Below are positions 46,547-64,000 of a DNA stretch of 64,000 nucleotides, one piece after another. The notes under the pieces were generated by a model. That model made no database searches and had not been told where the DNA came from. It saw only the letters and a program-made list of their open reading frames with translations. Location: the NCBI RefSeq assembly GCF_020103725.1, contig NZ_JAHXBG010000005.1, positions 124,001 to 188,000 on the forward strand, in the 5' to 3' direction. Origin of the DNA: Hyalangium gracile (lineage in GTDB: Bacteria; Myxococcota; Myxococcia; Myxococcales; Myxococcaceae). Each line of letters begins with the position of its first letter. The first letter of the stretch is position 1. The position numbers and the translations under genes were made by a program.

Positions 46547-47092
46547 ATGACTTCAGCGCCCTCCTCGAAACCTGGAGCCGCGGCCACCGAGACGCTCGAG
46601 CTCATCACGACGCCGCGAACAGGCTGGCTCGTGGGAGTGGATGGCGAGGGGCGACCGCTGGTGGACTTCGAGGGCAACCGCCATGGCCCCAGCGCCGCGC
46701 GAAGAACCCTCCCGCTGGAGCCGGAGGCCCTGCGGAGCGCGGTAGCCCAGCGCCAGGGCGTCATGCTGCTCTTCGAGAACGGCGACCCGCGCCTGCCGGT
46801 GATCATCGGCCTCTACCAGGCGGAGAGCGCCACCCCACTGCTGGACGCGATGCTCGAGGAGCCCAGCCCGGAGGCCCCACCCGAGCCCGAGCCCTCCCCA
46901 ACGCAGCCCATGGAGGCCCACGTGGACGGCAAGCGGGTGGTCATCGAGGCAGCCGACGAGGTCGTCCTGAAGTGTGGCCAGGCCAGCATCACCCTGCGCC
47001 GTAACGGCAAGCTCATCCTCAAGGGGACCTACGTCGAGACGCACTCGACGGGGGTGAACCGCATCAAGGGCGGCAGCGTCCAGATCAACTGA
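46547..47092 (+). CDS. DUF6484-like, gp5/VgrG-type OB-fold protein, copy 1
   Basis: 181 residues. The N-terminal part (about 20-95: GWLVGVDGEGRPLVDFEGN … GVMLLFENGDPRLPVIIGLY) has the pattern of the OB-fold domain of phage gp5/VgrG spikes. A proline/glutamate-rich linker (EEPSPEAPPEPEPSP) leads to a C-terminal stretch (LKCGQASITLRRNGKLILKG … NRIKGGSVQIN) that resembles the beta-prism end of VgrG proteins. I recognise this as the DUF6484 type, found near type VI secretion and polymorphic-toxin genes; exact biochemical role unknown. A small spike or adaptor that carries the Rhs effector is a reasonable guess. An upstream frame stays open from 44921 but is antisense to the radical SAM gene; the ATG at 46547 is shared by all three copies. 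Two paralogues follow at 48331 and 54951. Confidence 0.75.
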   Translation: MTSAPSSKPGAAATETLELITTPRTGWLVGVDGEGRPLVDFEGNRHGPSAARRTLPLEPEALRSAVAQRQGVMLLFENGDPRLPVIIGLYQAESATPLLDAMLEEPSPEAPPEPEPSPTQPMEAHVDGKRVVIEAADEVVLKCGQASITLRRNGKLILKGTYVETHSTGVNRIKGGSVQIN

Positions 47093-48198: not shown

Positions 48199-48259
48199 AA
48201 TTTTTCGAAACCACGCCCTCCCGCCTCTATGACTGGAGCGCGGACGCTAGCAGCTCTTG

Positions 48260-48876
48260 CAAGGCGGAGTGTACATGGACGCACTCCAGGACCACCACCG
48301 TCGATTCACCATTTGGGATACACTAGGGGCATGACTTCAGCGCCCTCCTCGAAGCCTGGAGCCGCGGCGACCGAGACGCTCGAGCTCATCACGACGCCGC
48401 GAACGGGCTGGCTCGTGGGAGTGGATGGCGAGGGGCGACCGCTGGTGGGCTTTCAGGGTAACCGCCATGGTCCCCGCGCCGCGCGAAGAACGCTCCCGAT
48501 GGAACCGGAGGCCCTACAGCGCGCGGTAGCCCAGCGCCAGGGAGTGATGCTGCTCTTCGAGAACGGCGATCCGCGCCTGCCGGTGATCATCGGCCTCTAC
48601 CAGGCGGAGAGCGCCACCCCGCTGCTGGACGCGATGCTCGAGGAGCCCAGCCCGGAGGCTCCACCCGAACCCGAGCCTTCCCCAGAGCAGCCCATGGAGG
48701 CCCACGTGGACGGCAAGCGGGTGGTCATCGAGGCAGCCGACGAGGTCGTCCCGAAGTGTGGCCAGGCCAGCATCACCCTGCGCCGTAACGGCAAGCTCAT
48801 CCTCAAGGGGACCTACGTCGAGACCCACTCGACGGGGGTGAACCGCATCAAGGGCGGCAGCGTCCAGATCAACTGA
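48260..48876 (+). repeat. Duplicated unit, copy 2 (upstream block + DUF6484 gene)
   Basis: Similarity with copies 1 and 3 starts at CGGAGTGTACATGG near 48262 and runs to the end of the DUF6484 gene. The radical SAM fragment is absent from this copy. Confidence 0.8.
48331..48876 (+). CDS. DUF6484-like, gp5/VgrG-type OB-fold protein, copy 2
   Basis: 181 residues, same architecture as copy 1 (OB-fold-like N-terminal half, proline/glutamate linker, beta-prism tail ending GGSVQIN). It differs from copy 1 at a few positions, for example VGFQGN for VDFEGN, and VVPKCG for VVLKCG; the Leu-to-Pro change in the first strand of the tail could affect folding. Start ATG 48331 is shared with the other copies, and the same ACTAGGGGC block precedes it. 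It is followed by a convergent group of small genes on the - strand. Retention of an intact frame suggests it is still selected or was copied recently. Confidence 0.75.
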   Translation: MTSAPSSKPGAAATETLELITTPRTGWLVGVDGEGRPLVGFQGNRHGPRAARRTLPMEPEALQRAVAQRQGVMLLFENGDPRLPVIIGLYQAESATPLLDAMLEEPSPEAPPEPEPSPEQPMEAHVDGKRVVIEAADEVVPKCGQASITLRRNGKLILKGTYVETHSTGVNRIKGGSVQIN

Positions 48877-49431: not shown

Positions 49432-49848
49432 TCACTCTGATGGAGTCTCATTTTGCCGTAACTTCTCCAACACCCACTGAGTAGGTCGGGAGGAAATCTT
49501 GCATTCATCACTATCCGGGAACCACCACACCGTCACCTCAGCCTCTCTTTCGCCCAACGAACACAGGACTGAAACATCCAACCAGACCTCAGCCACCGGT
49601 CCGTGCCTTCTTGGTCTGACATCCACGAACCTGACGATGGAGATCGAACGCATTTCGAACGGCGCCAACATGCCCATCGTATCCACATAGACATCGAGGG
49701 GTTTGTCGACCATTCCCCGAGGAAAGAACAACTGCTTGCGAGCCTCCGCCAGTCGGCCTTCATTGAGCAGGTCAAAGTGACTTCGCACCAAGGACAGCGC
49801 ACGCGAGAGAATCACCTGTTTCTTGTCATCATCCATGCATTCTCGCAC
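49432..49848 (-). CDS. NTF2/SnoaL-like small protein, putative immunity protein
   Basis: 138 residues, or 134 from the second Met (MDDDKKQ). Pattern of a helical N-terminus (LSRALSLVRSHFDLLNEGRLAEARKQLF) followed by four to five strands (MRSISIVRFVDV, VAEVWLDVSVLC, EAEVTVWWFPD), which suggests an NTF2-like cone fold. No catalytic residues are evident. Many immunity proteins of polymorphic toxins use this fold, and the gene overlaps its upstream neighbour in a chain of small - strand genes, so an immunity role is inferred. The fold call is from pattern only. Confidence 0.5.
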   Translation of the reverse strand: MRECMDDDKKQVILSRALSLVRSHFDLLNEGRLAEARKQLFFPRGMVDKPLDVYVDTMGMLAPFEMRSISIVRFVDVRPRRHGPVAEVWLDVSVLCSLGEREAEVTVWWFPDSDECKISSRPTQWVLEKLRQNETPSE

Positions 49849-50072
49849 GAGACTCCGCCGAACACGCCCGGCCTGATGACGGACGCGCTAGCAACCGGAG
49901 CACTCTTCACGTCGATAAGGCCTCTTCGCGCAAGCGCATCAGCCTGCTCCTCAGAGAGGCTTTCGCGACCGCCCCGGTTATCAACATAAGGGCCAACGAC
50001 AGCCATCGACTCGCTCTTAATCACCTTCAACTGTTGCTCGGAGAAGCGTCCACTCGCCTCCCTCGCGGTCAA
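49812..50072 (-). CDS. Small hypothetical protein in the immunity-gene chain
   Basis: 86 residues from TTG 50072, which overlaps the stop of the gene before it (TTGA), implying coupled translation. Sequence is moderately polar (FSEQQLKVIKSESMAVVGPY, ESLSEEQADALARRGLIDV) with no transmembrane segment or known motif. Its 3' end overlaps the start of the NTF2-like gene by 37 bp. Not recognised; may be an immunity protein or part of one. Confidence 0.4.
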   Translation of the reverse strand: MTAREASGRFSEQQLKVIKSESMAVVGPYVDNRGGRESLSEEQADALARRGLIDVKSAPVASASVIRPGVFGGVSCENAWMMTRNR

Positions 50073-50460
50073 CCACTGAATTCAATGAAGGCATCGCGAT
50101 TGCAGTAATGAGCCAGTGCCTCAACCAACTCTTGCTCACTGACGTTGGGCTTCTGCAGACGAGCATTATCAACGACCTCGAGCACCTGGGCAGCGGACAG
50201 AATCTTGACCAACCCATTGGCCTCGGCAAACGGAGGAAGGTCGTCCGAGTAGAGGTCGCGCTCCAGGATGCACGCCTCACTATGGGCTGCCCAAGGCAGT
50301 CCGCCTCGCATGTAGAGCGCATATCCTCTCGTCGGTTCCTTGATCGCGCGCAAAATCTTCCCCAGCGTCGTCAACTGACCTGAACTCAACGTCCGCCTCC
50401 AATATTTTCCATTCAAGCCCATCAACAACCCTCTTGGAGAAGTGCTCTAGACAAGCCCAC
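50069..50460 (-). pseudogene. Frameshifted immunity-like gene
   Basis: The 3' frame (ILRAIKEPTRGYALYMRGGL … EALAHYCNRDAFIEFSG) is clearly coding. Upstream of a run of four C at 50360-50363 the coding-like frame switches to EHFSKRVVDGLEWKILEADV and EFRSVDDAG, while the continuing frame gives an implausible GKYWRRTLSSGQ. Removing one base of the run would join the two halves. A start at TTG 50428 would give a 119-residue protein with a scrambled N-terminus. Read as a gene broken by one extra base, or a local sequence error. Family not recognised; position suggests immunity. Confidence 0.5.
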
Positions 50461-50638
50461 TCCTCGCCATGATCCTTCCAGCCTCCCGAAGATCAACCCC
50501 CTCAACATCGCGAATCGCCTTCATGACTGAAATCAGCCCCAGATTCATTTCCTTCATCGCACCCAAAGACTGCTCCAAGGACAGCCCCTGCCCCCGAAGC
50601 TGTCTCAGCACATCCAACGCCCGGCGATCGCTTTCCAC
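50447..50638 (-). CDS. Small protein with ribosomal L7/L12-like C-terminal motif
   Basis: 63 residues from GTG 50638 (the frame is open about 12 codons further, HREFVGAGG). A helical N-terminal half (ALDVLRQLRGQGLSLEQSLG) leads to VMKAIRDVEGVDLREAGRIM, which follows the L7/L12 C-terminal pattern (KxIRxxTGLxLKEAKxLV). Stand-alone proteins of this kind are small and often sit in immunity-gene stretches of toxin loci; they are not ribosomal. It lies between two immunity-like genes on the same strand. Confidence 0.5.
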   Translation of the reverse strand: MESDRRALDVLRQLRGQGLSLEQSLGAMKEMNLGLISVMKAIRDVEGVDLREAGRIMARSGLV

Positions 50639-50709
50639 AGCGCCCCCTGCACCGACGAATTCCCGATGGAATCATGCTCCGAGAGCCAGGATCAACATGC
50701 CTCATGAAA

Positions 50710-51237
50710 TCAGGGCCCAGCTCCTGGAAACTGGGTCAACACCTGCAACGTGACCATCGAGACACTGAGAAGATCAGCAGCATACTCCACCACGATCGCG
50801 CAATCCCCATATACGTACTTGTCGCTTGGTAGACTGAAGCCATAGAAAGGGATCTCCTCTCCCTCTCGGGCACTATCAGGCTTGCCCATGGCGCGACGCA
50901 CGGCCTCGCGATCGCTCGAAAAGCTCAAGCCCTCTGGCAACCCTTTGAAAAAAGCAGAGTGACCAGCAAGTCCCTCTGAGAACAAGAACAGTGCTGCGAC
51001 GCGACCATTCTCCACATCGACGTCGATCCCACGCCTCTTGAAGACATAGTACGTTCGATCTTCCACGGTACTTACTTCCGAGACTCCTCCCATCTCCAAC
51101 AAGAAACCAGCAACCTCTTGAGAAGAAAAGGCTCGTCCAAGAATAGATGTCAAATACAGAAAACCATCCGGCACCGAACGTGATCTCATCTCATGCACCA
51201 CCGGTATGAACATCAACACGCCTCGGGACAGGTCCAT
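50710..51237 (-). CDS. Hypothetical protein, putative immunity protein
   Basis: 175 residues from ATG 51237, immediately after the stop of the decayed gene upstream. The body alternates strands and loops (DRTYYVFKRRGIDVDVENGR, VAALFLFSEGLAGHS, GLPEGLSFSSDREAVRRAMG, DKYVYGDCAIVVEY), a pattern I associate with small inhibitors that have a LPxGLxFSxSRxxVxxxLGxP signature. Only this pattern and the location support an immunity role. A later start (MRSRSVPDGFLYL, 17 residues in) is possible. Confidence 0.55.
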   Translation of the reverse strand: MDLSRGVLMFIPVVHEMRSRSVPDGFLYLTSILGRAFSSQEVAGFLLEMGGVSEVSTVEDRTYYVFKRRGIDVDVENGRVAALFLFSEGLAGHSAFFKGLPEGLSFSSDREAVRRAMGKPDSAREGEEIPFYGFSLPSDKYVYGDCAIVVEYAADLLSVSMVTLQVLTQFPGAGP

Positions 51238-51764
51238 TCACACGGTTTTCAAGTCCTCCCACCAGTACTTCTCCGACGACGCTTTTTCTCCAACCAGAAT
51301 CATCAGGATGAACCCGCCGCCGGTCGAGGCTTGACCAGGAATAAATGCTCCACTCACCTGGGGACACCATGCCCATCTCCATCTCTCGGAGTTTCACCAC
51401 GGTACCCGCTGAAGAACGGCAGGTCGCCACATTCAACCACGCGCCCGCTTCAGGAACTCCTCTCGAGTCATCCCGACCTTCTCCAACCATTGCCACGCAC
51501 CCACTCCGGGGTAACTCAGAATCGCTTCGCCCAGGCGAGCACCAATCTCGCGACAAGATCATCGAGACTCGCGTCTGGGTAGTTCCTGACGGCATTCCAC
51601 CCGTGCGCCACGATAGCGAGGTCTCGTCCCAACGCCGCATCCGTCTCCTGCGCAAACACATCCTCATAGAGACGCTCTCCATCGGCCTCCACGTACCCGA
51701 TTGCGACTTGCTCCTCCTCAACCCACTTCACCCCCACGAACTCCTCGACCTCCTTATCGAACAT
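51238..51764 (-). pseudogene. Immunity-like gene broken by about three frameshifts
   Basis: Four coding-like pieces follow each other in changing frames: DLAIVAHGWNAVRNYPDASL … VLAW (start ATG 51764, stop at 51516); EAILSYPGVGAWQWLEKVGM … FLKRA (stop near 51433); VVECGDLPFFSGYRGETPRD (stop near 51354); and SGAFIPGQASTGGGFILMIL … KYWWEDLKTV (stop 51238). Single-base changes near 51525, 51440 and the C-run at 51357-51360 would restore one protein of roughly 175 residues. The synthetase frames stay open over 12 kb, so general sequence error is unlikely and true decay is favoured. The next gene starts directly at its last stop. Confidence 0.5.
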
Positions 51765-51811
51765 AGCTCACCGTCTCCCTCCAAAGCCGGTCCACTGGGT
51801 TCTCAAATCAT

Positions 51812-52063
51812 TCAGTACTCTACAGCGGCCCCGATTGAGCTGATGTTGGCCGTGTTCACGCACAAGCCCGGCAGCAGCAATCGGTTGAGCGTGGGATCAA
51901 CTGGGTTCCACAGTAGCTGCATCAAACACGTCAGTCCCCAAAGCGAGACGCTTATCCATGCGCCGGTCGGCCCCACGCCGTCCAAGGTTCCCCAGGTGGA
52001 GTAGGCCTCACCGCTGAAGTAGCCGGGACTTTCATCGTCCAGGCGCCCTCTTCTATCAGCCAT
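51812..52063 (-). pseudogene. Chimeric relic beginning with the radical SAM 5' region
   Basis: The open frame of 83 codons starts with a piece matching the radical SAM protein: PGYFSGEAYSTWG here against PSYLSGEAYSAWG there; the DNA GTGGAGTAGGCCTCACCGCT at 51999-52018 differs by one base from the parent. After that the sequence departs into an unrelated hydrophobic stretch (LTCLMQLLWNPVDPTLNRLL … ANISSIGAAVEY). It marks another end of the duplicated unit, joined to what may be a toxin tail. Probably not functional. Confidence 0.5.
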
Positions 52064-52074
52064 GCATCATGTGC

Positions 52075-52391
52075 TCACCTGGGCTGGGCAGCCCTTACCA
52101 GATCCTTGAGACGACCCGGCCCTCCCGAGATCCACCCTCGCACTTCGCATTCAGCGACGACCCGGGCCGCGCTCGCCACCAGCTCCCGCATGAATGCATC
52201 GAGCGGAACACGCTCCTCGAGAATAACCTGCTCGGCTCCCTGACTTCGCCGCTGGCACCGAACAACAAGTTCGCTGCCCTGCCGAGCTGCATCGAAGAAG
52301 AGTACGCAGCATCAATGATTCACCACTGCCCCGGGTTCATGACCGGGTCAACCAGAGCCCCACCGCGACTCACCTGGAGCACTCCAAAGAC
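52075..52391 (-). pseudogene. Truncated, frameshifted immunity-like gene
   Basis: Two - strand pieces without a proper start: VLQVSRGGALVDPVMNPGQW (stop 52320) and, in another frame, VLFFDAARQGSELVVRCQRR followed by VPLDAFMRELVASAARVVAE and CEVRGWISGGPGRLKDL (stop 52075). The second has a convincing helical, charged C-terminus. Joined by one shift near 52315 they would form one small protein whose 5' end is lost or overlaps the end of the gene upstream. Read as a relic. Confidence 0.4.
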
Positions 52392-53002
52392 TCACGATAT
52401 TCCAAGAATCCCAGAATACTCCGTCCCGTAGGGCGCAGAGCACGCATGACAGGGAGGCCCCCTCGTGCCGGATCAGTCAGCACAGTCAGTGCCTCCATCT
52501 CTATGCCGCTCAACCGATGAGGATCCACCATCCACTGCTGCTCCACCACCATCATTCTTCCCAGAAAATCATCCGACGGCTCGTCCGCAACGAGAACATT
52601 CACAGCACCAGATGCTCTCGCTACCTGAACCATCAATTGTTCGTATCTATTGTCCCCCGTCTCATTCAACTCACTCCACCTCTTGAGCGAAACAATAAGA
52701 AAGAAGATAGGCGTTGGGTGCGGAGATCCGAACACACAATTCATGAACAACGTGCGATCACGACATTCGACTTCAAAACTAAGCCCTTCCTGCAAGTAAT
52801 GGGAGACATTATGACCAGCAAGATTGCCCAACTTGATCTGTCGAGATCCAAAGGCGACCCCCCATTCATTCATCCCAGCGACGATAGCAGTGGAATCAAA
52901 CTCAAAACCTACGGCGCGCAGCGCGGCGATGACAGCACCCGGGTTCAAATCCACACCAGGCTCTGGAAGGAAAAAGAAGAACCGGCGGGATCCCACAATC
53001 AC
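52370..53002 (-). CDS. Hypothetical protein, putative immunity protein
   Basis: 210 residues from GTG 53002; a second GTG two codons on (52996) has better spacing from the AGGAGGGG upstream. Alternating strands and helices (SRRFFFFLPEPGVDLNPGAV, HNVSHYLQEGLSFEVECRDR, FGSPHPTPIFFLIVSLKRWS), no signal peptide, no catalytic motif. Not recognised. Its size, lower GC and place between other such genes suggest another immunity protein of a lost toxin. The 63-bp gap to the upstream gene allows one transcript. Confidence 0.5.
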   Translation of the reverse strand: MIVGSRRFFFFLPEPGVDLNPGAVIAALRAVGFEFDSTAIVAGMNEWGVAFGSRQIKLGNLAGHNVSHYLQEGLSFEVECRDRTLFMNCVFGSPHPTPIFFLIVSLKRWSELNETGDNRYEQLMVQVARASGAVNVLVADEPSDDFLGRMMVVEQQWMVDPHRLSGIEMEALTVLTDPARGGLPVMRALRPTGRSILGFLEYRESLECSR

Positions 53003-53065
53003 CCCTCCTGATGATACACAGGCGACAAGGACTCAACCGGCTTCCGCGAAGAGTCCTCGAAAGAA

Positions 53066-53692
53066 TCACCGAGTTTTTCGACACGCAATCAGCACTCGAG
53101 GGTTTCCCTCGTCGGCGAAGCCAAACCGAGCATCATGAACCACTTCCACCACCCCGATGGAGGGAAACACCATGTCATCCTGCTTTATTGGGTGCTCGGG
53201 GAGCCATCTCGACGGGAATTGTACCGCGAATTGGTACCGCTCGGGCATTTGCCTCATCAGCTCGTTCTCCCGCAGGACAGTCTCCTCAGGAAGCACTTCC
53301 CTGCCATCAATGGACACCCTGAACCGGCCACGCCGGAACGCGACGAGACTCATATCGCCACATAGGGCAAGCCCCGCTAACGACACCCCGCCGAGAGTTC
53401 CACCCGCGAGACCCGTCTTCGCCCCATAGGGATCGTTTGAGATCGCCACCTTCAAGCGATCGAGCACTCCTAGCAGGTCGCTCCCGTGCCCGCTCCATTC
53501 CACATGCGCGAGCATCTGCACCAGATTCCACGCGAGCGACATTTGGCCTTGAAGGGGAGCGTCCACCACAAAGGCCCAGACAATCCGCGCTCCCCCTACG
53601 TACACGCTATCGACAACATCGAACACTTGCCGCGACTCTTGCTCAGGGAACTGCACTGCTCGCCGAAACCTCCACACATCAGACCAAGCCAC
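53066..53692 (-). CDS. Hypothetical protein, putative immunity protein
   Basis: 208 residues from GTG 53692 with GAGG seven bases upstream. Beta-rich N-terminal half (ESRQVFDVVDSVYVGG, ARIVWAFVVDAPLQG), a middle with LAWNLVQMLAHVEWSGHGSD and a C-terminal half ending VVEVVHDARFGFADEGNPRV. No motif known to me. Head-to-tail with the 210-residue gene downstream, so the two may be co-transcribed. Context only supports an immunity or accessory role. Confidence 0.5.
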   Translation of the reverse strand: MAWSDVWRFRRAVQFPEQESRQVFDVVDSVYVGGARIVWAFVVDAPLQGQMSLAWNLVQMLAHVEWSGHGSDLLGVLDRLKVAISNDPYGAKTGLAGGTLGGVSLAGLALCGDMSLVAFRRGRFRVSIDGREVLPEETVLRENELMRQMPERYQFAVQFPSRWLPEHPIKQDDMVFPSIGVVEVVHDARFGFADEGNPRVLIACRKTR

Positions 53693-53704
53693 GTGCTACC
53701 TCGC

Positions 53705-53920
53705 CTAATTGGAACTAGAAGCCCTGTGGCACCTCATCGCTCTAACCCAGCGCCCATTCTCAGCCACCAGATATGTCATGATCTCCATTTTACCAATCGC
53801 ACACAACGGCTGGGGGAACAAGGCTTTTGCATAAGGGACCTCGGCATCGTTGAATGCTTTGAAGCAGCCACCCCATCCATATGCAGTACTCGCCCAGCAC
53901 TCCCCCGAATCACAAGCCCA
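53705..53920 (-). pseudogene. Open fragment without a start codon
   Basis: A 71-codon - strand frame bounded by stops and lacking a start near its 5' end. It reads GWGGCFKAFNDAEVPYAKAL and PLCAIGKMEIMTYLVAENGR and looks protein-like, with several Cys. Probably the 3' end of a decayed gene. Confidence 0.3.
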
Positions 53921-54510
53921 TCAAAAACACTCTGCTCGAAAAGCGCGCGTACCTATGCGAGGAGTTCAGCGACAGCCTCGTCCACGGGCGCAGGCACCAG
54001 ACACTCCTGCCTGCTGCTTGAGGGCTCGCCGTCCCTCCCTCCGCCTCTGGCCGCCACAGCCTTCGTTGCGCACGGCGCCCCGGCCGCACGGCGGAGCGTT
54101 GTCTCAGCACGCCTCGCTCTCACGCTCTCACAGAGCGCCTTCATGCAATCCTTGTATCCCTGTCGCCCCAGAACGCATCGGATCTGGCCACCCAGGCTCG
54201 TATTTACCACTGTCGCTGGGCTTCCTGCCGGAATTGCTCCAACTCTTTCTATCGGCTGCCTCCTGCAATGAGGTTCAGGAGACCTCACGAAAGGCTGGAT
54301 CCCGTCTCGAAGGGTCACGGCGAAGTCTTACGTAACGCTCAGGCGATCACCATCCGGCTGAAACTCGCCGTCAGCATCCACCGCGTCGAGCGCCCCTTGA
54401 GCGCGGCGACCCCTGTCCAAGCCCGCTTCGCGCATCGCCCAACAGGCTAACAAACCGGAATCTATTGCCTTGGCCCTTGCAAGAGTTCGCCTGACAGAAA
54501 ACCGGGACTC
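53921..54510 (-). other. Stretch without a confident gene; decayed coding traces
   Basis: About 590 bp in which no frame is convincing along its length. On the - strand a piece at 54328-54510 (AKAIDSGLLACWAMREAGLD then DAVDADGEFQPDGD) looks like coding sequence but lacks a start and ends at TAA 54328. The same frame continues after the stop as an arginine-rich frame to 53953 that looks less natural. A short inverted repeat GAGGT/ACCTC lies near 54270-54287. Taken as the remains of one or two genes. Confidence 0.35.
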
Positions 54511-54704
54511 TCATTCGCAAATCTCTCGATTTCGAAAATGAGTTGCTCCACCGATGCCTCCCGCAGCCCTTTTTCATACCCAAGCGTGTCTTCACAGCGA
54601 AGAATCAGCCACTCAATATCTAGGTATCGCGCATTAGGTCTATGCAACCCAGCCCTCAGTTCCTTCAACAATCGCTCAATCCATTCGGCCACAGGGTCAA
54701 GCAT
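54462..54704 (-). CDS. Small helical protein, putative immunity protein
   Basis: 80 residues from ATG 54704 (MLDPVAEWIERLLKELRAGL), preceded by GAGGTGGAG; the frame is open further upstream to 54758, but those codons overlap the toxin tail in another frame. Almost wholly helical and acidic (YLDIEWLILRCEDTLGYEKG, VEQLIFEIERFANESPG). It begins eight bases after the stop of the toxin-tail relic, the normal spacing of a toxin/immunity pair, so it is a good immunity candidate for that lost toxin. Family not recognised. Confidence 0.55.
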   Translation of the reverse strand: MLDPVAEWIERLLKELRAGLHRPNARYLDIEWLILRCEDTLGYEKGLREASVEQLIFEIERFANESPGFLSGELLQGPRQ

Positions 54705-54712
54705 ACTCCACC

Positions 54713-54784
54713 TCAAAATGAAATGTACCCACCCTTGTGCGTATCTCGAACCCTCCAATCAATCGCACTCCGCCCATCCTTCAG
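54713..54784 (-). pseudogene. Last residues of a lost toxin, joined to the repeat unit
   Basis: In one frame the - strand reads KDGRSAIDWRVRDTHKGGY then ISF and a stop at 54713, a typical charged C-terminal end of a secreted toxin. Just upstream, at about 54784, the DNA becomes the radical SAM 5' fragment of repeat copy 3. The rest of the toxin is missing. This is a direct view of a recombination junction. Confidence 0.5.
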
Positions 54785-55496
54785 CCTCACCGCTGAGGTA
54801 GCTGGGAATGTCGCACCGCGGGTTGATCAGATAGAGCGACTTGGCCACGTGTCTGCCTCGCGCAGCAGCGGGTGGACTGGCTCGCGGAGTGTACATGGCC
54901 GCACTCCAGGATCACCACCGTCGATTCACCGCTTGGGATACACTAGGGGCATGACTTCAGCGCCCTCCTCGAAGCCTGGAGCCGCGACGACCGAGACGCT
55001 CGAGCTCATCACGACGCCGCGAACGGGCTGGCTCGTGGGAGTGGATGGCGAGGGGCGCCCGCTGGTGGACTTTCAAGGTAACCGCCATGGTCCCCGCGCC
55101 GCGCGAAGAACGCTCCCGATGGAACCGGAGACCCTACAGCGCGCGGGAGCCCAGCGCCAGGGAGTGATGCTGCTCTTCGAGAACGGCGATCCGCGCCTGC
55201 CGGTGATCATCGGCCTCTACCAGGCGGAGAGCGCCACGCCGCTGCTGGACGCGATGCTCGAGGAGCCGAGCCCGGAGGCTCCACCCGAACCCGAGCCTTC
55301 CCCAGAGCAGCCCATGGAAGCCCAGGTGGACGGCAAGCGGGTGGTCATCGAGGCAGCCGACGAGGTCGTCCTGAAGTGCGGCCAGGCCAGCATCACCCTG
55401 CGCCGTAACGGCAAGCTGATCCTCAAGGGGACCTACGTCGAGACCCACTCGACGGGCGTGAACCGCATCAAGGGCGGCAGCGTCCAGATCAACTGA
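54784..55496. repeat. Duplicated unit, copy 3 (radical SAM 5' fragment + upstream block + DUF6484 gene)
   Basis: Matches 46379-47092 almost base for base, including about the first 65 bp of the radical SAM gene with its GTG start (near 54850), the spacer and the complete DUF6484 gene. The radical SAM fragment stops at the junction with the toxin tail. Confidence 0.85.
54951..55496 (+). CDS. DUF6484-like, gp5/VgrG-type OB-fold protein, copy 3
   Basis: 181 residues, again with the OB-fold-like half (GWLVGVDGEGRPLVDFQGN, GVMLLFENGDPRLPVIIGLY), the proline/glutamate linker and the GGSVQIN end. Differences include ATTETLE for AATETLE, RAGAQRQG for SAVAQRQG and EAQVDGK for EAHVDGK. It shares several changes with copy 2 against copy 1, so copies 2 and 3 are the closer pair. 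It is convergent with the Rhs/immunity genes and is the copy nearest the intact Rhs effector, hence the best candidate for its working partner. Confidence 0.75.
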   Translation: MTSAPSSKPGAATTETLELITTPRTGWLVGVDGEGRPLVDFQGNRHGPRAARRTLPMEPETLQRAGAQRQGVMLLFENGDPRLPVIIGLYQAESATPLLDAMLEEPSPEAPPEPEPSPEQPMEAQVDGKRVVIEAADEVVLKCGQASITLRRNGKLILKGTYVETHSTGVNRIKGGSVQIN

Positions 55497-55522: not shown

Positions 55523-56005
55523 TCATCGGCTTATTACACGAACCGGCACACGCGAAATACTGAGCGTTCTCAATTGCATTTCGCACTGCTCGACCATCAA
55601 CCGACCCTGCGCATCCGGCCGCATCACGGCCCAGCGAGCAACACTACTTGAAAGACAAGGATAGAAGGAATCAACATCATATCCTCTCTCAGCGGCGACA
55701 ACCGCTGTCAGGTCTCCTGGGATGATGAGCCTCCCTCCACCAGAAAACCGCGCAAACACCCCAGCAGCACGGGCCGCGTCTTTTTCAAACGCACGGCCAA
55801 TATCAACCCCAATGAACGAGAGGTGAGCCGCGAGATCATCCAAGTCCAAAAACTCTCGCTCTTCCTTCCACCTGAGCCGCAAGTACACTCTCAGGATCCG
55901 CTCAGGTTCATCATAGTTACGCGGACCTTCCTCAAAATCTCGACAGCATGCCAACTCAATAGCATCCCACAAAACAGAAGCCTCGACTTTTGTCCTGACC
56001 ATCAA
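55523..56005 (-). CDS. Putative immunity protein for the Rhs metallopeptidase toxin
   Basis: 160 residues from ATG 56005, three bases after the stop of the giant Rhs gene and on the same strand, the standard place of the cognate immunity gene. Mostly helical and acidic at the N-terminus (LWDAIELACCRDFEEGPRNY, ERILRVYLRLRWKEEREFLD, LDDLAAHLSFIGVDIGRAFE), then strands (GGRLIIPGDLTAVVAAERGY, MQLRTLSISRVPVRVISR). No signal peptide or membrane segment, so it should act in the cytoplasm. GC is lower than in the Rhs core, like the toxin end itself. Family not recognised; the role rests on position. Confidence 0.65.
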   Translation of the reverse strand: MMVRTKVEASVLWDAIELACCRDFEEGPRNYDEPERILRVYLRLRWKEEREFLDLDDLAAHLSFIGVDIGRAFEKDAARAAGVFARFSGGGRLIIPGDLTAVVAAERGYDVDSFYPCLSSSVARWAVMRPDAQGRLMVEQCEMQLRTLSISRVPVRVISR

Positions 56006-56008
56006 CCA

Positions 56009-59000
56009 TCACCATTTCTTGTCTACGCTCTCCGCCTTGTTGACCACACCCAGCGCTTCTTGAGGACTGAGGTCGGCCAGAGACCGCCTCCCATACTCCT
56101 TGTCTCGGATGGCATACGATGGGGTATCCATAATCATAATCGCCAACTCCTTCCACCCACTTTCGTATGTGTAATACTTGGCATCCTTGAAGTCATTGAA
56201 CTGCACAAACTCTATCATTGCCCGGTTTGCCCTGACTTCAGCAAGCAACTCCACCTCTGCGCCTGGATTTTTTTCTGGAATGATCTTGCAGCGCATATCC
56301 ATGCAGTGAGTGCCCTCATGGACAATTGCAGCCAGAACATCGCTCAGTCGTTGCGAATTATTGACTACAAATCCTTTCTTACCTCTCGTCTCTCCGCTCA
56401 AATAGAAGTTGGGATCGAACGTCATCTCTAGAGTTCCAAACTCAAGAGCTTTCAGAATCTTGGCGGACTTATTGGTGTGCTTAGCATCTCGGAAAGCCTG
56501 CATGATGTCTTTTGGATCATGAAGGAATCCCGACGAATACGGCTTGCCAGACGCAAAGTCGTTGAAACCATGCTCTCCGCGCCTAGCCCCCATCAATCCG
56601 CGCACACTGCTTGCCAGCGCGCCAAAGCCTACCGGAGCAAGATAATCGACACTGTCTTGAAGCCCAAGTTTGTAACCCAGAGCTTGGCCGATGAGGTCAT
56701 CGCTGACGCCCTCGACAAACTGCTCCACTCCTTCTTGAACCAGCGAGTTCGCTCCCATTCGAGCCGCATAAGCTCCCCCCACCTGTCCAGCGAAGTGGCC
56801 CAACGCGCCACCTGCGGCACCTATGGGCGCGGAGAACAAACCCATCCGAGCGGAATGTGCGATGGTCTTGCCCTGATAGTAACTACTCAGTGATGTTCCA
56901 GCGAACGCACCCACAGCGCCGCCTGTCGTCCCTGCAAGCAAAGCGCTACCGCCAACTGCCAGTGAAGCCCCGGCTGTCAGCCCTGCCGTAAAGCCGGTCA
57001 CCCCGCCAATGGCAGCACCTTGTCTGCAACCTGCCCAGCCACCTTCGATGGCGCCCAGCGCGCACCCACCAGCCCCACCTACCGCTCCGCCAATAACTGC
57101 TGTGACCAAGGTTGCCAACCGCCCATCCGAATCCACATAGCGTGTCGGATTGCCATTGGCATACGCCCACGGGTGCAGGCCGGCGGGCATACTCCGGTCC
57201 CCAGACAGAGAATCCTGAGAGAGGAAACGGCCCAACTGCGGCGCATACCAGCGCTGCTGCGCGTACACAAGGCCTGCATCCGCGTCGAAGGAATGTCCGG
57301 TGTACCCCAGGCTTGCCTGAGCTGCGTCAGGCACCGTCCAGTGAGTCTTGTCTGTCTGGTATCCACCCCACACGTCATAGCGGTGCCACATATCCGTAGC
57401 CCCCACCCTGCCAACCGCGCTCCCCAGTCCGTCATGTGCGATGCGCACCGTGCCCACCGACAGCGTCATTCCCGCTGCCTGCGTATACAACTGTGCCGGT
57501 TGGCCCGGGAGTCGCTCCTCAACCAGAGCCTCACCTGCCCACAGGTACCCTGTCGTCTGGCCCCCCACAGTACGGCTGACACGCAACCCATTCCACCCGT
57601 AGACGTACGTCGCGGTGGTGGTGCTACCCTCGCTGGCCGCTGGCTGGACGGTCACCCGCGTCAGCCGGCCCGCCGCGTCCCAGCCATATTGCTTCTGGCC
57701 GCTCGGCGTGACTTCCGAGCGCAGACGTCCCGCAGCATCCGTGACGTATGTGGCCAAGCGCTGATTGGTCTGATTCGCATCGTAGATGCCCTCAAGACCG
57801 CCGAGATCATCCAATCCGAAGACCCAGTGCCTCTGGGCCACAGCCGACGCAAATCCATCTGGCCCCAGTGTCCCGCCGTAGGCAGTTGCCTCCTTCTCGG
57901 CCTTCCGGGTCCCATCTCCTGTCAACTGGTACAGCAGTGCAACGCCATTCGGATAGCGGACTCCCGTCAATCTATCTGCTGCGTCATAGCCATACTGCGT
58001 CTCCTCCGCTGCCGGGAGTTGCGCGTCGCGATACACCTCTTTCAGCCGATTGCCGCGCCCGTCGTACGTATAGTCGAAGCGACTGTGCAGCCCCGATGCC
58101 GTATCCAGACTGTCACACGAGACGAGGCTCACCCCAGCATTGAGCACCGCCGACACCTGCCCGCGAGCGTTGTAGCAACGCCGCTCTCCCAGGCTCCCTC
58201 CCTTCACCCCTGTCAGTCGAGCCCCTCCCGGCTCCCATTCCAGGGTCGTGACGTCAGTCGAGCCCGGCCCGGTGATGGTCTTCAGACGGTCCAACTCATC
58301 GTAGCCGTAGGTCAGCGCTCCCACCGGGCTCGTCATTGACAGCCGCTGGCCACTCGGAGTGTAGGTGAATCCCACCGAGTCGCTTCCGCGTGTCGTCTGG
58401 GTGAGCAGCCGGCGCGCGTCGTAGGTGAAGAGGTTCTCCACCGGCCCGGACACCCGCTCCTCCATCACCTTCCACGGCTGATCCACCGCTGTGTACGCGT
58501 ACGTCACCCCCGTCAGGTCCGTGTTCGAAGCGCTCTGGGTGCTGGGGTGATACTTCACCCGTGCTACGCGCCCGCGACCATCCAGCAGCACTTCGGTCTG
58601 GCCCTGGTTGGGGTCCACCTGGGTCGCGAGCCCCGAGGTCCAGGTCGTGTGCCATGAAGCCGTGGTTCCCCGAGTTCGCAACGTCGGGCGGCCTAGATGG
58701 TCGTAGTCGAAAGTCTCCTCCGCAGTCCCGTTCCCAGGAGGGGTTACCTTCTTCAACCGCAGCAGCCCATCATAGGCATAGGTGAAGACTCCCGCTCCCG
58801 GCTGCGCCACGGCCAACAGCTCGCCTCGCGCTCCGCGCGTGTACTGCCACTGCTGCGCATCCTGGCTGCCCACCCCGTACGTCACCGACAGCAGGGCGCC
58901 GTTGGCGTCATAGGCAAAGCCTGTGGTCTGGAAATCACCGGACTTGCCGTAACGCGATTCCTTCACCATCCCACGCGGCCAGTAGTCGTACTGCATCTCG

Positions 59001-62000
59001 CGCAGATCCGGAGTCTTGCGGCTCTTCAGGCGGCCGTCCACGTAGTACGTGTAGACGGTCGTCTCTCCACCGAAGGACTCTTCCTCGAGCAGACCTTCCG
59101 TGTATGTGTACTGAGTGGCAAGCGTTCCCGCTGGTGTCTCTTTCGCGAGCACCCCCGCCGCGTCGTACAGCCACCTGTCCGTCTGCCCGTCTCGAGTCAC
59201 CTCCACCACATTACCGAGCGAGTCCACCTTCAGATAAGCGGTGCGCTCATCGTGCCGCCCACCCGCATCGTCCACGAAGCTCACGGTCGCGTTGCGCCCG
59301 GACCAGACAGTCGTGGTCGTGTAGTTGTAGGAGAGCCCTCCTGCCGACCACTCCTCCTCTTCATCGAGAGCGCGGCCACGATCATCTCGTGCGTTGTATT
59401 GGGTGCTCGCCTGCCAGCCAGAGCCCTCGCTCACCGTGCGAGACTTCTCCCAGGGCCCCTGGAAGTCCGCCGTCATCTCTCGGCTACCGCTCGCCGCTGA
59501 CACCACCTCTCTCACCAATCGTCCGCGGGCATTGGAGCGCCGCGTAGTGACGATCGTCCTCCCGCCGCCCAGGTCGACCGTCTCCTTCACCTCCTGCGCG
59601 GCAGGCAGATAATCGTACGTCCACGATGTCTCGGGCGTAGTGCCAGCAGCGGCCACTCTCTTGGACACCAACCGCCCCAGCTCATCGTACTCATACGTGC
59701 ACTGATAGCTCGGGTCTGGTCCGTGCTCCACGTGGACCCGCCCCTTGGCATCGAGTTCATACGTGGAGGTGTAGTTCTCCGCATCCTGCACCCGCACCAG
59801 ATGGCCCAACGGATCATAGAACCTCTGGGTAATGGCATTGCTCGGAGACTTGTGCCACCACACCTGCCCTCGCTCGGTGTACTGGTACTCGTCCACCGCA
59901 GGCTGCCCGTCCACCGTGCGCTCCACCTTGAGCACGCGTCCCATCGTATCCAGGGTGTACTTCGCCGTCTCCGTGCGTGAATCCTCTCCTGTCTCGATGG
60001 CGCGCAGCACCACCAGCGTGTGCGCCTGGTCATCGTAGGTGCGCGTCTCGTCGAGTTTCAGCTCACCCTCGGGGGTCGCCACCGTCCGGGAATGCTTCGT
60101 CGGACGCCCGAGTACGTCCTTGTACTCATAGGTCTCGACCAGCCCCAGTTCCTCATCCTCCAAGCGCGTGAGTCGGCCCGCGTCGTCGTAGCGCCGCTCC
60201 TCGTGCACTCCTCCGTTGGAGTTCTCGCTGTCCGTGCTCTGCGGGTTTCCGAGCGAATCGAAGGCTGTCATTGCCACGGCGTGCTTCAGCGTGCCGTCCA
60301 GCAATCGGCGCACAGGGCTCCCTTGTGCGTCCAATTGTACCTCTTCCTTGTCACCATTCCCCCAATCCCAGAACACCGGGCGTCCCAGCCCATCGTAGGC
60401 AATGGTGGTCTTCCGGCCCAGGTCGTCGGTAACGTAGGTGGGCTTCCCCTCCGCATCGAGCGTGTATTCCACCTCGGACAGCCCGTTGGCCGTCACCTGC
60501 CGGAGTCTGCCTTCCGAATCGTAGTGATAGACGTGCGGCGTCTCCTCCTCATCGATGACTCTCGCGAGCCGCCCATGCTCATATTCATACGCGCGGGACA
60601 CCTGCTGAGCTGGATCTCCAACGAAGAAGCTCTCGCCTTCCAGCCTCCCATCTTCGAAGTAGAGTGTCCGCTGATGCTGCGACGTCGTTCCGGGGGAGAC
60701 CTTCTCCAACGTCTCCGTGATGATGAGGGCGTTTTCCTGATCCTCGTACGCATACGTCCACGACTGCTGTGGCGTTCCCGAGACAATGCGCGTCAGCGGC
60801 CGGTTGAGCATGTCGAAAGTGGTGGACTCGAAGCCCTGGGTCTCTACGTCCTCCCAGTGCGTGAGTCGACCATATGGGTCATACGTCATGAGACGGGTGA
60901 TGGACTCCAGCCCACCGGTCGCTGCTTCGGGCAGCGCCATGATCAGCTTCTGAGGTTGGCCCAGTGCATTGAAGTCCTCGAACCGTACCTGGCGTCCCTG
61001 AGCATCGGTATAACTCTGCATCAGCCCGTCGGCGTCATACTGCGCGTTCTGCAGCAGTGAGCGCGTGCCCGCTTCATTGCTTACCGAGATGCTCGTCAGG
61101 TCGCCTGTGTCGCTGCGCGGGCTGTTGACGGTCGCGGTCCCGGTCCCCACCTTCACCCGGGCTTCGCTGGGCAGGCCGAATCGGTCGTCCAACGTGTAGT
61201 CCACCAGGGTCCCGCCGCTGCCCAGCCCTGCCACGGGCCTGCTGTTCTCCGGAGCTCGGGTCAGCTCCACCTTCTTCAACACCAAGCTGGGACCATGCGA
61301 CATCTGTATCTCGCGACCAGTTGGGGCGACCTGCTTCGTGGGGACGACGTTACCGTCGCGAGAATCGCTCCCCCAGAATGTCGTGGCGGCCCCCAGAGGA
61401 GAGAACTTGCTGCCCACATTGCCGGACTGATTGAGGCGCAGGGTCAGCGCCACGCCATCCGGTCTCGTCACTACGCGCTCGTTGGAGGCGGTGTAGCTGA
61501 TCTCGAGGCGCTCGCCCTGCATGCCCGTCGCCGACACGCCCGAGACCATCTCGTGTGCCTTGATGTGCCGATACGGAGCACTCTGGGATGAACGCCAGTA
61601 TGAGGCGCGCCAGTGCGTAGGCCCATTCGCCTCCAGCGTGTCACCATGGATGGTCCGTGCCACGGCCAGTTCGTTGAGCGCCTCCCACTTCTCGGTAGGC
61701 CCCATCGACAAGGCCGGTGGCCAGTAGTCGTACTCGTAGATCTGGAACGGAGTGCCCGGCCAGCGCGCCGCGCGCCTGAGATTCCCGGTCCGGTCACGTC
61801 TAAACGTGACGCTATAGTTGCCGCCGGTCTCGCTCGTCATCAACAAGGCTTTCATCCACTTGAAGTCCTTGTTGCGCGCGAGGAGGCGAATGTAGTCCGG
61901 CAGTTCTTCATCCTCCGTGTCCACGTCCTCGTACGTGAACAGGAGACTCATCGAGCCCACGTCCGCCAGCTGGATCACCTCCGAGAGACGATCGGTGTCG

Positions 62001-64000
62001 CCCTCATATTTGAGCTTCGTCCAGCCTACGTTCGAGTCCGACCTCGCGTGGCTGTCTCCGAACCGCGTGAGCATCCATTTGCGCTGCCCCTCCTCGCGGG
62101 GTCCCTTCACCGGTCGATTGAACTCGAACGTCCAGCCATCCGGCGTCTTGAGGATCACCTTGTCATCCGGCTGTGCACCGTCGGGCAGTTCCAGCGGTGC
62201 GTCCACCGTCAGCGTGAAGGCATGCGTCTTGTCCGTCATGCCCGGCTGCATGCACGTGGCGTTTCCTTCAAGGGCCGGATTGGGGTCCTTCTCACACTTG
62301 GGGAAGGCGAAGCCCTGGCCGCCGATCACCACGACGTAACGGCCGATCTTCTCCTCGAGCACCCAGCCATCGAAGTTGTGCGTCCAGCCCAGTCCCAGGT
62401 GGGTCGGCTGGTTGTTCTGGTTGTTGTAGATGCGCTTGAAGGCGAACGCACCGTTGAGGAACGGCACCTCGAAGTCGATGTGCTCGAACCCGAGGTGGCC
62501 ATCCGTCACATTGACACCCGCGACGACCTCCTGGCCCACGGCGCGTGCGTTGGCGCCATTGTACGAGCCCTCTGGTCTACCCAGGGCCATCACCAACCGC
62601 TCGGTGTGGGGCTCCACGGGCTCAAGCACCAGGTAGACAGGCACGGAGGTGTTCCCGCTGCCCGGCATGCTGGCCAGATGTGCTGGCAGTTGCAGTTTGA
62701 AGCGCCGCGCCCCCGTAGGAGTGGCGGCCTTGGATTGCAGCAACTTCTCCTTGACGATGCCGTTCTGCGTCTCCTCCACTTCATATCTGCCGTCAGGCTG
62801 CAACCTCAGTGTCGCTTCCTTGAGAAGGTTCTGCGTCCCCGCGCACGCCTCGTTGAGGCACACCTTCACCAACCCTCTTGTCAGGTGAGCGGGCTCGACG
62901 AAGAAGTTCGTCATCGCCGGCCGAGACACCGGTCGGCCAGGTTCGGGCTTGCCGTCCGACCGGTCTGCCTTCACCGCCGCCTCTGCGGTGTACTCCATTG
63001 ATGCCGTCAGCAGATCCCGCCGCGCTGCCAGGCCATAGAAATTGAAGCGGTAGAGGACGTTCTCCGCGTTCCCGCTCAGATACAGCTCGAGGTAGAGGAT
63101 GTCGCTCGCGCTGAGGACCTCACCGATGTACTCCCCGCCGCACGTCGCCGTGATGGACTGAGTGACCTCGTCAATCTTGAGCGGACAATCGATGCCGAAC
63201 TGGTCGCTGCCCAGCCGCACCCGGTAATCCCCGCTCAGCGTTCCCGCTCGCCCTGCCTCTGGCGCCAGCAGGCTCGCGAGGAATTCATAGGACAGGTCCC
63301 TCTCTTTTGCACCTGGCTCCGACTGCTCCCTCATGTCGCGCGATGAGCCATCTCCACGAGCCGTCACCTTCTGCGGCTCGAGCTTCAGGATGCGGAACTC
63401 GTGCTCGCGTGCCAGGTCGTACTGCTCCACGAGCGCCCCGTCGGCCCCGTAGCGCTTGAAGACGTTCTTCAAGTACAGGGCCTGGGCGGGCAGGCCCGCC
63501 GGGTACTCATCAGGGGGCGAGCTGGGTTCCTCGAAGTGTGGCGGCTTCGCCTCGTCCTCCGAGGGGCTCACGTAGCCATCGCCGTCCATGTCCCGCTCCA
63601 GCAACCGGTTACCCACCACATGGAGGTAGTAATTGGCGCTCACCAGGCTGTTGATCGTCTCGCGCTGGCCGTCTCCGTTGAGCCGGCGCAGGGAGGCCTG
63701 GACGTTCACCGTGTTCTGTCCCGGCGCCACCGGGAAGGTGGTCACCGCGGGCTGCTCCACCGCGCTGCCCGTCACGCGGATGATCTGGCCCGCGAGGGGA
63801 GGCACTCCTCTGGGCACATCCCCCAGTTGCTGGTCATCACGGAGGCAAGAGGCCCACTGCTGAGCCGTAGCCCCCGGCGGCAACTCGGAGCAGTACACCT
63901 CCAGCAACTCGCCGTCCTGACCGTCATCGTCCGTGATCGCTCCGGGACTGCACGAGCCGCCATCCGGCCGCAGACCCTTGTCGCAGACCTCTCCATGCCC
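56009..64000 (-). CDS. Rhs-repeat polymorphic toxin with C-terminal HExxH metallopeptidase-like domain, 5' end outside window
   Basis: The frame is open from the right edge of the window, so the N-terminus is missing; more than 2,660 residues are visible. The start has Asp-rich and Cys-bearing segments (DDDGQDGE near 63910; DMDGDGYVSPSEDE, an EF-hand-like loop, near 63570), suggesting a calcium-bound exported region. A DUF6531-type segment (FEHIDFEVPFLNGAFAFKRI, GLGWTHNFDGW) lies near 62340-62500. Many RHS/YD repeats (YDxxGRL type) run from about 61000 to 57500. The RHS core (DVWGGYQTD, GYTGHSFDADAGLVYAQQRW, GRFLSQDSLSG) is near 57190-57390. A glycine-rich hydrophobic stretch (57120-56870) could help entry into the target cell. 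The C-terminal domain has HEGTH at 56306-56320 followed by ELLAEVRA about 20 residues on, a gluzincin-like zinc site. Inferred role: toxin delivered to neighbours by a secretion system, killing by proteolysis. An immunity gene follows directly. Confidence 0.88.
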   Translation of the reverse strand, partial: GHGEVCDKGLRPDGGSCSPGAITDDDGQDGELLEVYCSELPPGATAQQWASCLRDDQQLGDVPRGVPPLAGQIIRVTGSAVEQPAVTTFPVAPGQNTVNVQASLRRLNGDGQRETINSLVSANYYLHVVGNRLLERDMDGDGYVSPSEDEAKPPHFEEPSSPPDEYPAGLPAQALYLKNVFKRYGADGALVEQYDLAREHEFRILKLEPQKVTARGDGSSRDMREQSEPGAKERDLSYEFLASLLAPEAGRAGTLSGDYRVRLGSDQFGIDCPLKIDEVTQSITATCGGEYIGEVLSASDILYLELYLSGNAENVLYRFNFYGLAARRDLLTASMEYTAEAAVKADRSDGKPEPGRPVSRPAMTNFFVEPAHLTRGLVKVCLNEACAGTQNLLKEATLRLQPDGRYEVEETQNGIVKEKLLQSKAATPTGARRFKLQLPAHLASMPGSGNTSVPVYLVLEPVEPHTERLVMALGRPEGSYNGANARAVGQEVVAGVNVTDGHLGFEHIDFEVPFLNGAFAFKRIYNNQNNQPTHLGLGWTHNFDGWVLEEKIGRYVVVIGGQGFAFPKCEKDPNPALEGNATCMQPGMTDKTHAFTLTVDAPLELPDGAQPDDKVILKTPDGWTFEFNRPVKGPREEGQRKWMLTRFGDSHARSDSNVGWTKLKYEGDTDRLSEVIQLADVGSMSLLFTYEDVDTEDEELPDYIRLLARNKDFKWMKALLMTSETGGNYSVTFRRDRTGNLRRAARWPGTPFQIYEYDYWPPALSMGPTEKWEALNELAVARTIHGDTLEANGPTHWRASYWRSSQSAPYRHIKAHEMVSGVSATGMQGERLEISYTASNERVVTRPDGVALTLRLNQSGNVGSKFSPLGAATTFWGSDSRDGNVVPTKQVAPTGREIQMSHGPSLVLKKVELTRAPENSRPVAGLGSGGTLVDYTLDDRFGLPSEARVKVGTGTATVNSPRSDTGDLTSISVSNEAGTRSLLQNAQYDADGLMQSYTDAQGRQVRFEDFNALGQPQKLIMALPEAATGGLESITRLMTYDPYGRLTHWEDVETQGFESTTFDMLNRPLTRIVSGTPQQSWTYAYEDQENALIITETLEKVSPGTTSQHQRTLYFEDGRLEGESFFVGDPAQQVSRAYEYEHGRLARVIDEEETPHVYHYDSEGRLRQVTANGLSEVEYTLDAEGKPTYVTDDLGRKTTIAYDGLGRPVFWDWGNGDKEEVQLDAQGSPVRRLLDGTLKHAVAMTAFDSLGNPQSTDSENSNGGVHEERRYDDAGRLTRLEDEELGLVETYEYKDVLGRPTKHSRTVATPEGELKLDETRTYDDQAHTLVVLRAIETGEDSRTETAKYTLDTMGRVLKVERTVDGQPAVDEYQYTERGQVWWHKSPSNAITQRFYDPLGHLVRVQDAENYTSTYELDAKGRVHVEHGPDPSYQCTYEYDELGRLVSKRVAAAGTTPETSWTYDYLPAAQEVKETVDLGGGRTIVTTRRSNARGRLVREVVSAASGSREMTADFQGPWEKSRTVSEGSGWQASTQYNARDDRGRALDEEEEWSAGGLSYNYTTTTVWSGRNATVSFVDDAGGRHDERTAYLKVDSLGNVVEVTRDGQTDRWLYDAAGVLAKETPAGTLATQYTYTEGLLEEESFGGETTVYTYYVDGRLKSRKTPDLREMQYDYWPRGMVKESRYGKSGDFQTTGFAYDANGALLSVTYGVGSQDAQQWQYTRGARGELLAVAQPGAGVFTYAYDGLLRLKKVTPPGNGTAEETFDYDHLGRPTLRTRGTTASWHTTWTSGLATQVDPNQGQTEVLLDGRGRVARVKYHPSTQSASNTDLTGVTYAYTAVDQPWKVMEERVSGPVENLFTYDARRLLTQTTRGSDSVGFTYTPSGQRLSMTSPVGALTYGYDELDRLKTITGPGSTDVTTLEWEPGGARLTGVKGGSLGERRCYNARGQVSAVLNAGVSLVSCDSLDTASGLHSRFDYTYDGRGNRLKEVYRDAQLPAAEETQYGYDAADRLTGVRYPNGVALLYQLTGDGTRKAEKEATAYGGTLGPDGFASAVAQRHWVFGLDDLGGLEGIYDANQTNQRLATYVTDAAGRLRSEVTPSGQKQYGWDAAGRLTRVTVQPAASEGSTTTATYVYGWNGLRVSRTVGGQTTGYLWAGEALVEERLPGQPAQLYTQAAGMTLSVGTVRIAHDGLGSAVGRVGATDMWHRYDVWGGYQTDKTHWTVPDAAQASLGYTGHSFDADAGLVYAQQRWYAPQLGRFLSQDSLSGDRSMPAGLHPWAYANGNPTRYVDSDGRLATLVTAVIGGAVGGAGGCALGAIEGGWAGCRQGAAIGGVTGFTAGLTAGASLAVGGSALLAGTTGGAVGAFAGTSLSSYYQGKTIAHSARMGLFSAPIGAAGGALGHFAGQVGGAYAARMGANSLVQEGVEQFVEGVSDDLIGQALGYKLGLQDSVDYLAPVGFGALASSVRGLMGARRGEHGFNDFASGKPYSSGFLHDPKDIMQAFRDAKHTNKSAKILKALEFGTLEMTFDPNFYLSGETRGKKGFVVNNSQRLSDVLAAIVHEGTHCMDMRCKIIPEKNPGAEVELLAEVRANRAMIEFVQFNDFKDAKYYTYESGWKELAIMIMDTPSYAIRDKEYGRRSLADLSPQEALGVVNKAESVDKKW

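Follow-up and report, generated by a model that had tools for sequence, protein, structure and literature searches.

The window, by which we mean the whole 64,000-nucleotide stretch of DNA analysed, ends in a giant Rhs gene on the minus strand, with a small gene placed directly behind it. The minus-strand reading frame at 56009..63907 runs past the window edge, and the full open frame in its contig (C5) encodes 4,969 aa. The genome comprises 11.7 Mb in 81 contigs. The features of the locus are as follows.

56009..64000, minus strand: Rhs protein, C-terminal 2,663 codons; the open frame leaves the window
57122..57358, minus strand: Rhs core end (NPTRYVDSDGR), before the variable part; TIGR03696 Rhs_assc_core, E 1.3e-16
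56582..57121, minus strand: glycine-rich linker; weak Gly-zipper match (PF13441, E 0.022, below the cut-off)
56012..56581, minus strand: predicted zincin-like tip, 190 residues; match to the HEGTHxxD tip family described below, AlphaFold2 model, GC 0.491
56306..56320, minus strand: HEGTH of the tip (H88, E89, G90, T91, H92), with the predicted catalytic Glu and two predicted zinc ligands; on helix 79-97
56237..56239, minus strand: E115 of AEVRA, third zinc ligand by prediction; lies on helix 107-128 and pairs with the family Glu in most alignments
55523..56005, minus strand: candidate immunity gene, 159-160 aa, directly downstream of the toxin

The other end of the window (1-44165) carries very long plus-strand frames, among which 3235-8013 encodes an NRPS module carrying a TubC docking domain. 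Three plus-strand frames closer to the toxin gene (44921-47092, 48229-48876 and 54642-55496) match DUF6484 at E 5.8e-20 to 9.3e-19 and lie on the strand opposite to the toxin genes.

Pfam analysis of 4,931 residues of the giant protein, starting just after the likely start Met, showed Ig-like repeats, DUF6531 (PF20148, E 1.6e-7) and RHS repeats (PF05593, E 4.2e-42). The TIGR03696 match spans residues 13-79 of the 449-residue C-terminal piece and ends at window position 57122. A reading of the sequence alone had placed a C-terminal domain after the RHS core and a glycine-rich segment, with the boundary at 57120, and the model match reproduces this layout. The GC content is 0.491 in the tip, 0.617 in the linker and 0.636 in the Rhs core, and the corresponding GC3 values are 0.574, 0.556 and 0.789; the tip is poorer in GC than the repeat region, as that reading had stated. 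Exchange of the tip was analysed using a query of 513 residues spanning the Rhs core end, which matches 26 of the 96 genomes of the host's taxonomic family at E <= 1e-60. The two best core relatives outside the own genome, with 64% identity over query residues 7-410 and 57% over query residues 3-499, carry other tips. The second of them also shares linker sequence, because its alignment covers query residues 3-499. Other tips on related Rhs cores were read in 8 genes, at the gene ends only; 21 of the 30 Rhs loci have no core end recognisable by the pattern used. The core-linker-tip layout, the low GC of the tip and the differing tips on similar cores fit an Rhs polymorphic toxin.

The tip forms the very C-terminus of the protein, and no further domain follows. 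Within the tip, H92 of the HEGTH motif is followed by E111 of ELLAE after 19 residues and by E115 of AEVRA after 23 residues, so the approximately 20 residues given earlier between HEGTH and ELLAEVRA, the spacing of a gluzincin, agree with the measured distances. When the tip is shuffled 200,000 times, an HExxH motif arises by chance in 1,619 cases, and one followed 10-60 residues later by E..A in 398. These odds are weak taken alone in a 64-kb reading; the motif is more than chance because the resemblance of the tip to other toxin tips extends beyond these residues.

Searches with the tip itself gave no name for it among the Pfam, NCBIfam, PHROG and PADLOC models. Pfam includes Tox-MPTase models, and none of the Pfam metallopeptidase models, these included and with matches followed up to E 10, reaches its cut-off. 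The Pfam matches at E <= 10 are YhdB (E 0.044) and DUF6782, a putative metallopeptidase (E 0.13), both far below the cut-off. The tip has no match at E <= 10 among PDB sequences and no relative in the viral contigs and plasmids searched, and its single match among phages, at E 9, was not taken as real. In 195 genomes of the phylum, the tip is found at E <= 0.001 only in its own genome and in none of the 194 others. A peptide scan of GTDB returned 16 stretches, none of which was confirmed as a relative. At a relaxed threshold of E <= 1, 22 of the 195 phylum genomes match; these matches were rejected as chance because the loci inspected (12 of 19) look by eye like unrelated proteins (hydrolase, GlyA-like, Lon-like, SAHase-like) or like frames interrupted by stops. 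As the searches with the tip were fruitless, genomes were scanned for a DNA pattern instead.

The pattern was DNA encoding HEGTHx[FILMV]D, with the codon of the preceding residue having T in the middle position. The GTDB genome scan gave at least 118 stretches, and a scan of viral contigs for the same pattern gave 15. A first set of 17 distinct sequences was chosen by eye together with a rule demanding a downstream E..A, and a model built from these 17 sequences added 6 more genome stretches. In total, 23 of the 118 genome stretches listed and 1 of the 15 viral stretches match the family model at E < 1e-9, 17 of them by construction. The family consensus reads TxQxxxIAxxIxxG, LGDxxF, IYxRxSS and LxSxxVHEGTHALD, followed by ExRAxxxERxFQ. 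Being the search pattern, HEGTHxxD is necessarily invariant; the downstream E..A is kept in the four unbroken members added by the model (L031, L083, L120 and L133) and in L187 and L229, the last of which was found later than the other loci. Record titles, known for only part of the loci, name Brevibacillus, Clostridium, Roseburia, Lachnospiraceae, Gilliamella, Aquabacterium, Methylibium, Chryseobacterium, Winogradskyella and others, which places the titled members in no fewer than three named phyla (Bacillota, Pseudomonadota and Bacteroidota).

In 21 of the 23 members listed the frame ends within 10 residues past the domain match, two of these (L074 and L122) being broken inside the domain; the domain is internal in the remaining two, L102 and L118. 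The tip of L028 lies directly behind an Rhs piece (PF03527, E 4.8e-9), and that of L031 behind a DUF4280 match below the cut-off. No peptidase match was found for the members scanned against Pfam (5 members) or NCBIfam (3 members), and neither the members used in two plasmid searches nor the alignment A3 in a viral scan found a relative. Beyond the centres, family matches at E <= 0.001 occur in none of the 397 genomes around G202 and in 2 of the 246 genomes around G207, one of them only at E 4.3e-5. The HEGTHxxD tip family is rare. A description of it was not found in the literature as represented by titles and abstract openings, and the family is apparently unnamed in Pfam, NCBIfam and the other libraries scanned.

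Two further observations were made during the scans. In a contig of the viral collection, L151, a family toxin frame (4615-5127) is the same as the one in the Chryseobacterium locus L093. Four phylum genomes (loci L158, L159, L160 and L162) contain a second HExxH group, with HEVNH, HETNH or HEVTH followed by EEYRAFY or a similar sequence; the family model matches them at E 8e-7 to 8e-4, and they were left out of the alignments as apparently another HExxH group.

The relationship of the window tip to the family was analysed using a family model of 21 rows (A2) built without the tip. L072 (E 1.9e-5), the broken frames L074 and L122, and L151, identical to L093, were left out of A2. On the own genome, the tip is the only match of A2 at E <= 10 (E 3.1e-4, 23.5 bits), a score to which the motif, shared by selection, contributes. 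In the phylum, 6 of 195 genomes match A2 at E <= 0.001; the best match, G119 (E 3e-9), is a giant protein with an Rhs core end, as judged by eye, and a family tip with HEGVH. When the motif was kept and the rest of the tip shuffled, HMMER ranked the tip second of 501, with one shuffle higher, and with the motif masked the tip scored 0.2 bits.

Alignment of the tip with the family by hhalign gave a score of 59.6 and a probability of 96.2 over tip residues 14-100. None of 300 motif-keeping shuffles reaches 59.6 (maximum 50.3, mean 34.4, s.d. 3.9). Similarly, none of 101 natural HEGTHxxD decoys from outside the family reaches it (maximum 51.6), many of these decoys being probably non-coding frames. 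L072, L074, L122 and L151 were left out of the first 100 decoys together with the family; L072, added as the 101st, stays at 48.9, lower than the tip. Masking the motif leaves the tip a score of 19.6, while the highest of 300 shuffles is 19.4, a thin margin. The HMMER shuffle test is weaker than the own-genome search with A2 and the hhalign tests. From these sequence comparisons we infer that the tip is a remote but real member of the family, mainly through its N-terminal helix (TNKSAKILKALEFGTLEMT) and the active-site helix.

The position of the third zinc ligand was derived from the family alignments. The family Glu aligns with E115 of the tip in A1, in A3, in HMMER and in three of four MAFFT modes, and with D133 instead in the global MAFFT mode and in A5. 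E115 is thus the predicted third ligand, an assignment that depends on the alignment method. A structural model was calculated by AlphaFold2 from A3, a remote-family alignment of the tip and 19 relatives; A5 (23 rows) was set aside because it moves the family Glu to another tip residue, a choice that favours E115. The model has a pLDDT of 70.8 and a pTM of 0.67, compared with a pLDDT of 39 for the single-sequence model. Predicted elements include the HExxH helix (79-97), the helix bearing E115 (107-128) and two strands (52-56 and 69-73). The block pLDDT is 79-90 for residues 81-130 and 46-69 for residues 51-80, which hold both strands. A fold devoid of a zinc site, the outcome that would speak against the zincin assignment, was not seen, as the model places HExxH and the Glu on successive helices, an arrangement typical of gluzincins.

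Structural searches had been proposed earlier as a check. With the tip model, Foldseek listed 21 PDB and 109 BFVD matches at E <= 10, none of them reaching E <= 0.001. In a VIA structure comparison, 168 chains were aligned and 46 rows shown. Judged by title or known character, 31 of these 46 are of zincin type, with proteins such as PPEP-1 and BlaR1 repeated, and 15 are not, including two phospholipases A2 and two prenyl synthases. The top row is the HExxH alpha-ketoglutarate oxygenase domain 8s5f (Z 7.6, r.m.s.d. 5.1 over 149), and the Z values, being at most 7.6, are in a range common for such models. Rows 2-4 are oligoendopeptidase F (2h1j, Z 6.8) and ArdC (6sna, Z 6.7; 6i89, Z 5.8), followed by the two phospholipases A2 at Z 5.0. 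Below Z 5 lie BlaR1, 6mdx (an entry on protease-dependent DPC repair), IrrE, vibriolysin, LasB, PPEP-1 and abylysin. Taken together, sequence, family alignment and predicted structure support what the sequence-only reading had proposed, namely an exchanged tip that is a zincin-like metallopeptidase.

The candidate immunity gene starts 3 bases (TTG) or 6 bases (ATG) past the toxin stop. Its product has nothing near the cut-off in Pfam or NCBIfam and no match in PHROGs or PADLOC. Comparison with 193 phylum genomes showed one clear outside relative, in G077 (31% identity, E 3.9e-16), and four other matches at E 7.8e-4 or weaker. The G077 relative sits among small frames on one strand, and the 7-kb stretch around it has no minus-strand frame with HExxH; judged from the sequence, this setting is what an orphan immunity gene would show. 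Downstream of the toxin pair in the window, small minus-strand frames (49812-54758) with a GC3 of 0.53-0.73, against 0.79 in the Rhs core, may form an orphan immunity gene array; one of them, 50072-50428, matches DUF7716 (PF24832, E 6.5e-20). A direct repeat of 29 bases with 86% identity (52005-52033 and 54784-54812) in this array may be left over from cassette exchange or be accidental.

The position downstream of the toxin was inspected in 20 family loci, comprising 19 of the 23 genome stretches and L229; L102, L118, L074 and L122 were excluded. A gene of 102-138 aa starts within 50 bases of the toxin end in 19 of the 20, and the contig edge follows in L112. The 19 genes are related to each other (leave-one-out E 3.6e-8 or better); those of L028 and L044 are identical, those of L039 and L109 are close, and that of L025 is truncated by the contig end. 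Among the loci with downstream room, 19 of 21 carry the related partner, the exceptions being the window tip and G119. A model of the 19 partners reports neither the product of 55523-56005 nor the G119 neighbour at E <= 1000. The immunity-position products of the window and the family have hydrophilic starts, with no signal peptide visible by eye. The tip may represent a divergent branch of a phylum-crossing zincin toxin family in which the enzyme was kept and the immunity partner wholly changed, a reading to which we give somewhat less than even weight. If true, the family would cut one conserved cytosolic target, and the partners would show immunity re-invented around a fixed toxin fold.

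On the sequence and the model, we hold with good confidence that the tip would be an exchanged gluzincin-type metallopeptidase toxin domain with 55523-56005 as its immunity gene. Other Rhs proteins free their tips at the core end. Similarly, the Rhs shell of the giant protein would carry and protect the tip, which would be freed at the core end. The tip would adopt a minimal zincin fold in which, by analogy with the gluzincin mechanism, H88, H92 and E115 hold a zinc ion and E89 activates a water molecule for the cutting of a peptide bond. In the producer cell, the product of 55523-56005 would bind and block the tip. A cytosolic protein of rival bacteria is the probable target, because the immunity-position products of the window and the family lack an apparent signal peptide.

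The same observation bears on the alternative of action beyond the cytosol or against eukaryotic prey. VgrG2b, a gluzincin tip of a T6SS, shows toxicity in the periplasm but none in the cytosol, according to the available portion of its description (PMC6899460). However, the immunity-position genes show no visible signal peptide by eye, and an immunity gene points to bacteria as the target, so that action elsewhere appears unlikely. That the HExxH fold serves another metal or reaction, such as that of an HExxH oxygenase, or is a catalytically dead binding zincin, we judge improbable. The best VIA row is indeed the alpha-ketoglutarate oxygenase 8s5f at Z 7.6, but the peptidase and ArdC rows that follow, at Z 5.8-6.8, are not clearly lower, and the tip, unlike a decayed site, has both His, the catalytic Glu and, in three of four alignment modes, the downstream Glu.

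The tip might also be a peptidase serving to process the Rhs shell, by release or trimming, in the manner of the releasing metallopeptidases known from PVC-type toxins. HExxH releasing metallopeptidases do occur in polymorphic toxins, but the accessible part of that survey describes them N-terminal to the toxin (PMC3482391), whereas nothing follows the tip of the giant protein, two similar Rhs cores end in other tips and a gene occupies the immunity position downstream; such a role is very improbable. The rare HEGTHxxD tip family, having one site, Rhs and other carriers and mostly one partner, is a compact set for finding both the target and the mechanism of immunity. The literature searched, as far as its consulted parts go, holds few proteolytic interbacterial toxins with a known target.

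Zincin toxin tips are already known in kind, and it is the HEGTHxxD family that is unnamed in the libraries scanned. Tox-MPTase1-5 are small zincin-like HExxH tips of polymorphic toxins on Rhs carriers, described as predicted toxins in the portion of the survey consulted (PMC3482391). The window tip resembles them as a small zincin-like HExxH tip on an Rhs carrier and differs in that it reaches no Pfam metallopeptidase cut-off and has HEGTHxxD followed by E..A. VgrG2b of Pseudomonas aeruginosa, as given in the available text, is antibacterial, has the site H935, E936, H939 and E983 and is followed by a downstream immunity gene (PMC6899460). The window tip shares with it the gluzincin HExxH and Glu and the gene in the immunity position. 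However, VgrG2b is carried by a T6SS VgrG and acts in the periplasm, and its H939 and E983 are 44 residues apart, compared with 23 in the tip. T6SS genes exist in the genome of the window, since it contains three full-length TssC (VipB) matches.

The start of the giant Rhs protein reads by eye as a lipoprotein signal (LALVVGC-SK), which fits a predicted surface display. Teneurin-like proteins have a large YD shell, are lipoprotein-type in Gram-negatives and carry a variable toxic C-terminus with an adjacent immunity gene; according to the part of their description consulted, they occur in over 20% of Myxococcota species with lipoprotein-type export there, and their predicted tips include proteases (PMC13018210). 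In the giant Rhs protein, nothing at E <= 0.001 corresponds to the Pfam models for teneurin NHL or TEN_YD-shell, and a TTR_TEN1-4 match stays below the cut-off; the protein is therefore compared with, rather than classed as, a teneurin-like protein. As far as the consulted part of that description allows, it resembles the bacterial teneurin-like proteins in its large shell, its lipoprotein-like start, its variable tip and the adjacent gene.
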